This document shows, in pieces, positions 33,243 to 43,807 of a DNA stretch of 64,000 nt. Below the pieces are notes generated by a model. That model did not search any database, was not told the DNA's origin, and worked only from the letters and a program-made list of their open reading frames with translations. The stretch is taken from the NCBI RefSeq assembly GCF_025822765.1, contig NZ_JACKUK010000035.1, positions 62,001 through 126,000 on the forward strand, in the 5' to 3' direction. Positions within the stretch are counted from its first letter, which is position 1, and every line of letters starts with the position of its first letter. This stretch comes from Mycobacterium barrassiae (lineage in GTDB: Bacteria > Actinomycetota > Actinomycetes > Mycobacteriales > Mycobacteriaceae). The position numbers were made by a program, and so were the translations under genes.

Positions 33243-33269
33243 TGCTCCCCCGGCTGGACTCGAACCAGC
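33243..33269. repeat. att repeat, distal copy (attL)
   Basis: 27-bp exact copy of the last 25 nt of tRNA-Asn plus two flanking bases; the rest of the tRNA is absent here. The 326-bp gap from 33096 to 33421 holds this repeat, the integrase arm-type sites and otherwise nothing recognisable. Confidence 0.9.
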
Positions 33270-33386
33270 CGAAGCCCCTAATGCCACACCGGCGTTGACC
33301 ACGACATTAACCCTCTGACCTCTGAATATGCAGTACAACACACGTTTTGCGCTGTGGGGTTCTGTTGGGCTGCGCTAGGGTCACTA

Positions 33387-33404
33387 TTGCACGGAGGTTG
33401 CACG
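33387..33404 (+). promoter_or_regulatory. left arm-type integrase/excisionase binding site pair
   Basis: Two direct TTGCACG heptamers (33387-33393, 33398-33404) 11 bp apart, start to start. The same pair with identical spacing and orientation recurs at 43737-43754 near the other end. Confidence 0.6.
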
Positions 33405-33421
33405 ACACGGGAGCGTGGCAG

Positions 33422-34567
33422 ATGGCGGCGAAGAGCGAGCGGACGCGGCGGCAGTTCGGACGGCTACGTCAGTTGCCGTCCGGCCGGTGGCAGGCGAGCT
33501 ACCTGCACAACGGGACCGTGTACAAAGCGCTGGCGACGTTTCCCACCAAGAGCAGCGCCGGTCATTGGCTACAGGCCGAAGATGATCTGATCGACCTGGA
33601 CCGGCGTCGGCCTGGTGAGTGGACACCGCCCGCAGAGCGCGCCGCGCGCAGGGAGGCCGAGAAGCTGACGTTGCGGACCTACGCCACGACGTGGCTCGAG
33701 CACCGCAATATCTCCCGGCGCACCCGCGAGAACTACCGGTATCACCTGGAGTCGAACATCTACCCGGTGCTCGGCGACAAGGCGCTGGCCGAGATCACGC
33801 CCGAGGACGTGCGGGAGTGGTTCTCCGGTCTGGGGACCACCTACCAGACCCGCAATGCCCGCGCCTACGGCGTGCTGACGGCAGTGTTCAACACAGCGGT
33901 AGACGACGATCTGCTCGGCCGCAGTCCGGCGCGCATCAAAGGTGGGACGGCGGTCAAACACACTAAGCGCTCATCTGTGGTGCTGCTGGAGCCGCGCGAG
34001 CTGACCGCGTTGGCCAACGCCATGCCCGACGAACTGACGCTGACCGTCTTGCTGGCCGGGTGGTGCGGACTGCGGCGCGGTGAGGTATTCGCGCTGACCC
34101 GTGCAGACGTCGCCGCCGACGGCTCGACGGTGCGGGTAGACAAGGCGGTCACCTACCGCGAGCACAAATACCTCTGTGGCCCGCCCAAGACCCGTGAGAG
34201 CAACCGGGTGGTGACGGTGCCGGTGCACGTGCGTTCGGCGCTCACCGGCCATCTGAGCGCCCATGTGGGCGACGCAAAAGGCGCGTTGCTGTTCCCTGAC
34301 CCCGAAACCGGCTCGTTCTACACCGAGGGCCGGTTCCGAGGTCCGTTTTTCGCCGCCCGCAAGGCCATTGGGCACGACGATCTCCACTTTCACGATCTGC
34401 GCCACTTCGGCGGTGTGATGGCGGCGGTGGCCGGAGCCACCACCAAGGAGGTCATGGACCGCCTGGGGCACACCACTAGCTCGGCATCGATGCGCTATCA
34501 GCACGTTGCCGCGGGTCGGGCCGACGCGCTGGCTGAGCGGTTGTCGGCGCTGGCCGCGAGCACGTGA
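33422..34567 (+). CDS. int: tyrosine recombinase/integrase
   Basis: 381 residues from ATG 33422; a longer frame from 33347 would cover the arm sites and is less likely. An N-terminal arm-binding region (1-80) and SAM-like core-binding domain (85-170) precede the catalytic domain with Arg218 (CGLRRGE), Lys256, H324-x-x-R327-H328 (HDLRH), His350 (LGH) and Tyr359 (MRYQH). All catalytic residues are present, so it should be active on the tRNA-Asn site. It is transcribed inward, away from attL. Confidence 0.95.
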   Translation: MAAKSERTRRQFGRLRQLPSGRWQASYLHNGTVYKALATFPTKSSAGHWLQAEDDLIDLDRRRPGEWTPPAERAARREAEKLTLRTYATTWLEHRNISRRTRENYRYHLESNIYPVLGDKALAEITPEDVREWFSGLGTTYQTRNARAYGVLTAVFNTAVDDDLLGRSPARIKGGTAVKHTKRSSVVLLEPRELTALANAMPDELTLTVLLAGWCGLRRGEVFALTRADVAADGSTVRVDKAVTYREHKYLCGPPKTRESNRVVTVPVHVRSALTGHLSAHVGDAKGALLFPDPETGSFYTEGRFRGPFFAARKAIGHDDLHFHDLRHFGGVMAAVAGATTKEVMDRLGHTTSSASMRYQHVAAGRADALAERLSALAAST

Positions 34568-34570
34568 TCT

Positions 34571-34603
34571 AATTAAATCCTTTGTGCCGCAGGTAATTTA
34601 ATT
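34571..34603. promoter_or_regulatory. AT-rich inverted repeat, candidate operator
   Basis: AATTAAAT (34571-34578) and ATTTAATT (34596-34603) form a perfect 8-bp inverted repeat with a 17-bp spacer in the 187-bp gap between int and xis. AT-rich palindromes are rare in this GC-rich DNA, suggesting a control site for the replication/excision promoter. Confidence 0.5.
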
Positions 34604-34754
34604 CGTCGTGCGCCTGTCGTGTCCTGACGAATCCTTACAGTCCCAGGTGTATCCTGAGGTTCGGTCATAGCCCCGGACCCTCTGCACACGCACACATCAC
34701 ATCCCACGCACACCACACACGCGGGGATCATTCATCACACCGATGGAGTAGATC

Positions 34755-34988
34755 GTGCGTGAGAAGCACACAGCCACAAGCATTTACACCTCAGTCAAGG
34801 GTGCCGCCCAACGGTATGACGTCGCGGATTGCACCATTCGAGAACTCATCAACACGGGGAGACTGCCCGCTTACCGGTTCTCCGACAAGCCTGGCAGTGC
34901 GATTCGGATCAAGATCACCGACCTTGAGGCGCTGATGAAGCCCGTCATTCCCGCAGAACTTCGGACGGGATCGCTTGAGCGCTGCTGA
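34755..34988 (+). CDS. xis: excisionase-like helix-turn-helix protein
   Basis: 77 residues from GTG 34755. The stretch SVKGAAQRYDVADCTIRELINTGRLPAYRF... is the MerR/AlpA-like winged-helix pattern of excisionases and satellite regulators, binding DNA with a short recognition helix. In PICIs an AlpA-type protein also controls excision. It is the first gene of the rightward operon after the AT-rich palindrome. Confidence 0.75.
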   Translation: MREKHTATSIYTSVKGAAQRYDVADCTIRELINTGRLPAYRFSDKPGSAIRIKITDLEALMKPVIPAELRTGSLERC

Positions 34989-35062
34989 AAAGTGAGCGCC
35001 CCGCGGGGCAGTGAACCCGCGGGGCGATCGACCGAGTTAGCCACTAGGAGACAAGGTTCCCG

Positions 35063-42992: not shown

Positions 42993-43041
42993 ACAACGCC
43001 TAGCTGACATAGGGATTGTCAACGCCCGCAACGTAAAAGGC

Positions 43042-43084
43042 GGGTGACCCTCCAGTCCCGGACAGCGGTTGCGGAGGGTCACCC
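43042..43084. terminator. 12-bp stem hairpin after the capsid gene
   Basis: GGGTGACCCTCC (43042-43053) pairs perfectly with GGAGGGTCACCC (43073-43084), 19-nt loop. It may attenuate transcription between the abundant capsid and the low-copy connectors, lowering their ratio. Confidence 0.6.
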
Positions 43085-43103
43085 ACTCGAAAGGATAACG
43101 AGA

Positions 43104-43418
43104 ATGGCGGCAGTCACCGGGCAGGCCGTGGCCGACTTCCTCGGTCAGGGCGACGATGACACACTCGTCGAGCTGGCATCCGAGCACGCCGCGATCATGA
43201 CCGCGCTCGCACGGTCGTACACGCGAGGCCGCGGATTCGCGGGCGCGGACCCGGCCGAGGACATCGCCGCCGTGATCGTCACCGCTACGGCTCGTCTGGT
43301 GGCCAACCCGGAACAGTTGGCGTCCGAGGTCGGCAGCGTGGCGATTCGCGGCGGCTGGCAAGGCTGGAACTTGGCGGAGCAGATCGTCCTGAATCGCTAC
43401 CGAGTGCGGGCGCTGTGA
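43104..43418 (+). CDS. head-tail adaptor protein (gp15-like)
   Basis: 104 residues from ATG 43104 (AAGGATAACG upstream). All-helical, with LASEHAAIMTALARSYTRGRGF and ATARLVANPEQL, resembling gp6/gp15-type connectors that bind under the portal. It is followed by the stopper-like gene with overlapping stop and start. Confidence 0.75.
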   Translation: MAAVTGQAVADFLGQGDDDTLVELASEHAAIMTALARSYTRGRGFAGADPAEDIAAVIVTATARLVANPEQLASEVGSVAIRGGWQGWNLAEQIVLNRYRVRAL

Positions 43419-43726
43419 TGCTGGGCCGCGACAAGATCACCATCAACTTCTCCGAAGGTCGGACCGGACCACGTTTCAGCCGGACCGTCTACGGGACCAT
43501 CGTCACCGAGCATCTGGACGGCAAGCTACAGCCGTTCTCTAACGTGCTGGTGTTCTTGAACTACTACCGGCTGATCCTCCCGCGGACCCTTGATCTCAGT
43601 GGCGGCAACATCGTGACGGTGGATTTCGGAACGAAGGTCGGTGCGCGATTCGAGACGCCGCCCGTGCGGGTCTACGACGCCCGCGGCCGGGTGCGCCACT
43701 GGGAGGGGGTCGTGCGGTCGAGCTGA
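43415..43726 (+). CDS. head-closure stopper-like protein (gp16-like)
   Basis: 103 residues; starts GTG 43415 or ATG 43418, overlapping the adaptor stop. Beta-rich sequence INFSEGRTGPRFSRTVYGTIV with VVRVY-like strands toward the end; size and position match SPP1 gp16. It is the last gene before the att site; no tail genes follow. Assignment rests mainly on position. Confidence 0.6.
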   Translation: MMLGRDKITINFSEGRTGPRFSRTVYGTIVTEHLDGKLQPFSNVLVFLNYYRLILPRTLDLSGGNIVTVDFGTKVGARFETPPVRVYDARGRVRHWEGVVRSS

Positions 43727-43736
43727 CTGCCCGATC

Positions 43737-43754
43737 TTGCACGTATGTTGCACG
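43737..43754 (+). promoter_or_regulatory. right arm-type integrase binding site pair
   Basis: TTGCACG at 43737-43743 and 43748-43754, same spacing as the left pair, 26 bp before the right att core. Confidence 0.6.
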
Positions 43755-43780
43755 CAATTGCCAGAAATATGCGCTGACCT

Positions 43781-43807
43781 TGCTCCCCCGGCTGGACTCG
43801 AACCAGC
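43781..43807. repeat. att repeat, tRNA-proximal copy (attR)
   Basis: 27 bp identical to 33243-33269. It covers the 3' 25 nt of tRNA-Asn and two bases beyond, so integration leaves an intact tRNA. Confidence 0.9.

Follow-up and report, generated by a model that had tools for sequence, protein, structure and literature searches.

Is a mycobacterial locus that carries the genes for a phage head, and no recognisable genes for a tail, what is left of a prophage, or is it a mobile element in its own right? This question is raised by an integrated element of Mycobacterium barrassiae (assembly GCF_025822765.1, contig NZ_JACKUK010000035.1), which lies in a window of 64 kb (contig positions 62,001-126,000), the whole stretch of DNA that was analysed and whose numbering is used for all coordinates here. 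The element occupies positions 33243-43807 and measures 10,538 bp from the start of its left attachment site (attL) to the start of its right one (attR). The data indicate that it is very probably an intact-looking integrated phage satellite, which builds and packages small heads of its own and depends on a helper phage for tails, for lysis and possibly for the signal that awakens it. Structure and comparison support a satellite that forms heads and has no tail genes; its mobilisation by a helper is our inference. A first-pass annotation, made from the letters alone, had already proposed a satellite over a decayed prophage, and this proposal gains support from empty integration sites, a near-constant length, low rates of protein change relative to silent change in head genes, and compact relatives.

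Integration at tRNA-Asn

Two exact copies of a 27-bp repeat bound the element at both ends, as had first been noticed: attL (33243-33269), a copy of the tRNA-Asn 3' end, and attR (43781-43807), both given on the forward strand. The target gene, tRNA-Asn (gtt), is left whole at 43782-43855 on the reverse strand. When up to three mismatches are allowed, the repeat occurs at just these two sites in the window and at none in 100 shuffles.

Relatives of the host provide the unoccupied site. A query of 1 kb taken around the right end found matches in 59 of 61 genomes; in genomes of the same genus, the best listed right-end matches start at query positions 74-83 (one of them split), that is, at the att boundary (position 82) or at most 9 bases from it. 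One whole tRNA-Asn stands at all eight places read in relatives. Both window flanks are present at five of these (L078, L079, L081, L082 and L084), where the left flank aligns at 79-82% and its homology stops 0.5-2.4 kb from the tRNA, compared with 12.3 kb in the window; the left flank did not align in L077, L080 and L083. Taken together, the sequence of the ends and the empty sites demonstrate that the predicted integrase recombines the 3' end of tRNA-Asn and that the tRNA stays whole.

The gene at the left end, like all genes of the element described here, is read on the forward strand and encodes a tyrosine integrase of 381 aa (33422-34567; PF00589, 1.4e-12; phrog_1, 2e-55; searched as 33401-34564), which is 78-80% identical in loci L038, L043 and L162. 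Its translation contains visible R, HxxR, H and Y residues, which we take to be the tyrosine integrase active-site motif, in agreement with the full active site described earlier. It is followed by an AlpA/Xis-like HTH_17 protein of 77 aa (34755-34988; PF12728, 6.5e-7; phrog_66, 1.9e-4), which fits the excisionase-like protein of the first-pass annotation, and by a RepA-like AAA_25 ATPase of 578 aa (35063-36799; PF13481, 1.6e-16; phrog_10729, 7.5e-19), which is probably the replication protein.

In L077, which lacks this element, a second tRNA-Asn fragment of 44 bp (3387-3430, reverse-complement orientation) lies 1.3 kb from the whole tRNA and is possibly the trace of another integration.

A head module without recognised tail genes

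The right-hand part of the element encodes the machinery for building, filling and closing a head. Searches of 17 open reading frames (ORFs) in the window against Pfam and PHROG families back the HNH endonuclease (37513-37998, 161 aa; phrog_144, 1.5e-10), the large terminase TerL (37995-39449, 484 aa; PF03354, 1e-15; PF20441, 1.1e-13; phrog_9, 1e-85), an SPP1 gp6-like portal (39446-40810, 454 aa; PF05133, 2.7e-32; phrog_104, 1.1e-107), a MuF/VG15-like head protein (40807-41376, 189 aa; PF25310, 1.7e-6; phrog_1522, 6.1e-11), a scaffold protein (41373-41825, 150 aa; phrog_4708, 1.1e-5), homologues of which occur in most fetched relatives, and a major capsid protein of HK97 fold (42129-42992, 287 aa; PF05065, 1.1e-37; phrog_10, 6e-40). 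All six had been named in the first-pass annotation; family support is weaker for the HNH, MuF/VG15 (PF25310) and scaffold genes than for the others. Every named ORF is open, and six junctions have 4-bp overlaps (AAA gene/36796 ORF, 37259 ORF/HNH, HNH/TerL, TerL/portal, portal/MuF and MuF/scaffold).

The adaptor and stopper-like genes that had been proposed fared differently. For the head-tail adaptor (gp15/gp6-like; 43104-43418, 104 aa), a profile of 33 sequences matches the adaptor gp9 chains of PDB entries 8zdj and 8zdl (E 1.2e-8 and 1.6e-8), and its structural model (predicted local distance difference test, pLDDT, 87) resembles Douge gp9, SPP1 gp15 and HK97 gp6, none of them below E 0.001. 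The last gene (43418-43726, 102 aa) has fold matches only: its model (pLDDT 81) is a beta-barrel, and neck or connector proteins of phages, including those of Mycofy1, phiCD508 and Bxb1, make up its six best Foldseek matches. Because none of these matches falls below E 0.001, its naming as a stopper is a suggestion from modelling. Only 54 bp remain between this gene and attR.

No tail, holin or lysin family was matched, and no repressor recognised, among the 17 window ORFs searched, in agreement with what had first been reported. In relatives, an XRE-type repressor gene is clear beside a reversed integrase in L045, L047 and L100 and weaker in L037 and L040, and none was recognised in L039. A scan against PHROGs of 123 ORFs that follow the capsid gene in 27 loci (adaptor homologues being left out of the 146 listed) recovered connector families; it contained no tail or lysis family among the 25 families listed, which, with 67 more unlisted, is not proof. 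As such, head and packaging genes without recognisable tail genes suggest that tails are probably borrowed from other viruses.

A widespread family of near-fixed length

Capsid matches occur in 119 of 297 genomes of the genus at E 1e-3. At E 1e-50 they occur in 61 of 396 genus genomes, a sample that overlaps the 297. Related compact elements are common; their absence elsewhere would have spoken against a satellite. Across the order, 12 of 298 genomes in 6 of 76 genera match at E 1e-20. The 21 relatives found by the portal comprise 12 from Mycobacterium, one each from Mycolicibacter, Mycobacteriaceae, Gordonia and Oerskovia, and five from other actinobacterial metagenome genomes. Loci were fetched in two batches, first 60 and later 14, and the order HNH-TerL-portal-scaffold-capsid-adaptor, which the first-pass annotation had proposed to look for in other mycobacterial genomes, recurs throughout except in loci that are damaged or cut by a contig end. 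Relatives from mycobacterial and related genomes with 39-94% capsid identity are compact wherever both ends were found.

Flanking repeats that are identical over 20 bp or more were found in 40 of the first 60 loci, and in 36 of these they overlap a tRNA gene, of 11 kinds; when arms of different loci were paired as a control, a repeat appeared in 98 of 3,540 cases. Length was then measured in 37 elements, that of the window included, in which repeats define the ends, TerL has a match and capsid identity reaches at least 38%; this leaves out the 20 loci without a 20-bp repeat, L100 (no TerL), and L101, L102 and L105 (capsid below 38%, no TerL match). The median is 10,779 bp, and 33 of the 37 fall within 10,050-11,320 bp. 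Each of the four longer elements (12,855-13,741 bp) contains at least one transposase ORF inside its ends; outside their own locus, the five transposase ORFs find no match among the 60 loci or the 14 fetched later. A scan of 32 normal-length relatives (ORFs of at least 200 aa, first integrase left out; 39 of 127 listed ORFs scanned) revealed no transposase family among the 18 families found, with one HTH_7 and one HTH_38 match listed.

Random re-dealing of left arms, packaging-capsid blocks and right arms gives a far wider spread of lengths than is observed: the median absolute deviation is 628 bp when shuffled versus 241 bp observed (P 0.0001; P 0.00015 within elements on the same tRNA side). 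By standard deviation the effect is weaker (1,213 versus 868 bp; P 0.0006, and 0.004 within sides), and all of these P values are only a guide because the elements are related. The test used is the unrestricted one on all 37, a version limited to 9.5-11.6 kb being biased by that limit. In a fresh sample of 14 new places in the genus, 11 were fetched (three begin at a contig end), and the eight of these that are bounded all measure 10,499-11,405 bp. Two of three loci outside the genus are bounded, at 10,381 and 9,437 bp. This near-fixed family length is an argument for the packaging of such elements and predicts a head size.

The host genome itself holds further relatives. L033 (contig C23) is a second bounded element, of 10,594 bp, at tRNA-Ala; compared with the window element, its portal is 93% and its capsid 87% identical, and its TerL 37%. 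In L072 the pattern is reversed (TerL 88%, capsid 46%), and packaging and capsid genes thus swap independently. A third relative in the host, L034 (contig C41), is partial, being cut by a contig end; its adaptor gene is followed by one for a tail terminator (PF23841, 2e-43), and the genes identified after that (GntR/FCD, CHAD, ketopantoate hydroxymethyltransferase) appear to belong to the chromosome. More distant are L101-L105, with capsids of 25-34% identity and no TerL or portal match. Three of them (L101, L102 and L105) are bounded at 9.5-10.5 kb, so that the limit on length may also apply to other packaging cassettes.

Selection and the rival explanations

The ratio of non-synonymous to synonymous divergence (dN/dS), measured against 17 relatives, is low for the portal (0.10-0.24), for TerL of the same type (0.07-0.20) and for the capsid (0.08-0.20) except that of L072 (46% identical; 0.56); it is higher for TerL of the other type (0.54-0.62) and for the last gene (0.40-0.67). 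With proportions of synonymous differences (pS) of 0.36-0.67, dS is rough. In a collection of 50,697 phage records, TerL, portal and capsid find their best listed matches at 34%, 36% and 28% identity, respectively, and every match lies below 60%. This comparison, which the first-pass annotation had recommended, thus reveals no close phage, and no tailed prophage that would be the nearest relative. The marks of a defective prophage, namely a close intact phage relative or broken genes, were not found.

These data bear most directly on the explanation that the locus is a prophage remnant which has lost its tail and lysis genes, the name given in 2014 to some elements with this gene set in PMC3986857. 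Two further observations are compatible with it. L100 is a damaged copy, with no TerL found and a capsid match cut to 92 aa, yet measures 10,168 bp, so that some copies decay inside the length range; and no helper was found, the host genome having no match to the tail families PF10145, PF20155 and PF05709, searches that matched in 7, 5 and 1 of 14 control genomes and that leave other tail types possible. A remnant is nonetheless improbable given the open genes with low dN/dS, the near-constant length across many different tRNA sites and the lack of a close full-length phage in the records searched. Nor is there a sign that this copy arose by deletion inside a longer phage, in view of its empty sites, its length and the selection on its head genes. 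Several other points weigh against a satellite: 20 of the first 60 loci and 4 of the later 14 have no repeat at the thresholds used (20 or 18 bp); neither an excised circle nor a particle nor a helper was observed, and none of 39 viral contigs with the portal (4.3-21.2 kb long) has terminal repeats; element pS resembles that of host dnaG (0.44-0.55), so that no very recent transfer is visible; no small terminase family was matched among the 17 window ORFs; and no protease domain was seen in them. Of the last two, small-terminase phrog_57 matches 4 of 143 ORFs from 19 relatives, and the sole match to PHROGs annotated as head maturation protease comes from the MuF-like gene (phrog_1522, at the value given above).

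Two other explanations were weighed. A self-sufficient mini-phage could build a short tail from small genes that no family recognises, and there are four window ORFs with no assigned function (at 36796, 37052, 37259 and 41846) and, in some relatives, a longer right arm with unassigned genes. Several of the 37 elements, however, end within about 0.8 kb of the capsid gene, which leaves room for little beyond the adaptor and one small gene; in addition, no lysis gene is recognised, and the neck to which the adaptor and the probable stopper point is that of a siphovirus, all of which renders a mini-phage very unlikely. Slightly less likely still is an ordinary satellite that travels in helper heads and uses its own head genes only to disturb the helper. 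Many satellites do reshape helper heads (PMC6893505), but portal, TerL, scaffold, capsid and connectors form a whole set and not one size-altering gene.

For the tail-less satellite, the available data are compatible with a model in which helper infection or induction would lead the AlpA/Xis-like protein to start excision and the AAA ATPase to drive replication. Capsid, scaffold, portal and MuF-like protein would then build a small procapsid, into which HNH and TerL would package unit-length DNA, probably by a cos-type mechanism because HNH adjoins TerL and the length is near-fixed. Adaptor and stopper would close the head and offer a neck for the siphovirus tail of the helper, whose lysis would free the particles.

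Two viral contigs are of note in their own right. The genes of L118 (10.3 kb) run from TerL at its start to HNH at its end, the order expected of a circle or concatemer cut there; neither an integrase nor a piece of tRNA could be recognised in this contig. In L116 the integrase directly follows the adaptor, which would also be compatible with a circle or concatemer, and there is no tRNA piece. In the damaged L100, the first 92 capsid residues open a frame of 1,033 aa (13084-16185 in capsid orientation) with no Pfam match.

Known elements and head size

Elements of this kind are already in print. A table published in 2014 lists small elements of this gene content as prophage-like elements or remnants (PMC3986857), and regions with integrase and capsid were put forward in 2023 as candidate phage-inducible chromosomal islands (PICIs) of Mycobacterium, with induction and transduction left to determine (PMC10654092). 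Like phiMmcs_1, phiBN44_1 and phiMCAN_1 of the former and the candidates of the latter, the window element has integrase, HNH, terminase, portal, scaffold and capsid; those elements measure about 8-13 kb, often lie at tRNA genes and differ in no established way in kind. It also resembles phiRv1 and phiRv2, compared by description, which are small integrated mycobacterial elements with capsid genes (9.3 and 10.8 kb; PMC3986857) and have been called PICI-like; phiRv1 uses a serine integrase (PMC10654092), the window element a tyrosine integrase.

Capsid-forming PICIs, again compared by description, share with it the possession of head and packaging genes without a tail. The hallmarks found here are its own capsid, portal and connectors (the stopper by fold only), TerL with HNH, and an integrase with an AlpA-type HTH protein (PF12728) at an att site. 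In contrast to these islands, it measures about 10.5 kb and not their average of 14 kb (PMC10803314), has a separate scaffold with an SPP1-type portal, and lacks an identified small terminase and protease, both of which they are described as having (PMC10690885). The Streptomyces satellites MulchRoom and MiniFlayer are likewise actinobacterial with their own head and packaging genes, but are described as having virulent helpers, direct terminal repeats and no obvious replicase (PMC10690885), whereas the element described here is found integrated and carries an AAA gene of replication type.

The new parts are thus the near-fixed length and the head-size prediction, which were not found in the literature passages searched. 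A head model gives 11.8 kb (8.1-17.1) for a T=3 and 18.0 kb (13.2-24.5) for a T=4 head, and 10.5 kb falls within the T=3 interval alone of these two (PMC7762592). This fit is tentative because satellite P4, at 11.6 kb, has a T=4 head (PMC7762592). It is conceivable, although doubtful at present, that cos packaging into a T=3 head of their own, with the HK97 fold, keeps the genomes of a large old Mycobacteriales lineage of head-only satellites near 10.7 kb, the larger copies having taken in an insertion sequence. If so, an element common among actinobacteria would travel with tails taken from other phages and might be a source of the small T=3 heads which, according to modelling, are missing among known tailed phages. 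Because it is bounded, open and compact, and because its host genome also holds another bounded element and a partial third one, the element offers a practical test case for mycobacterial satellites.

Small genes and other observations

Gene starts were refined with a codon-based gene caller and the starts of relatives, which placed the integrase at 33422, the portal at 39446, the scaffold at 41373, the adaptor at 43104 and the last gene at 43418. No promoters or terminators exceeded shuffles. Four small ORFs have no family: one with a weak coding signal (36796-37059), an open frame skipped by the codon-based caller; an uncertain one of 63 aa with a marginal coding score (41846-42037); a conserved one of 66 aa (37052-37252; identity 83% in L033, 69% in L038, 53% in L072); and a conserved one of 85 aa (37259-37516; 79% in L033, 76% in L038), which sits where a small terminase might be. 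Finally, in L085 a second, distant capsid gene (30%; G024:C122:181442-182149) and a close relative of the window element are about 4 kb apart.

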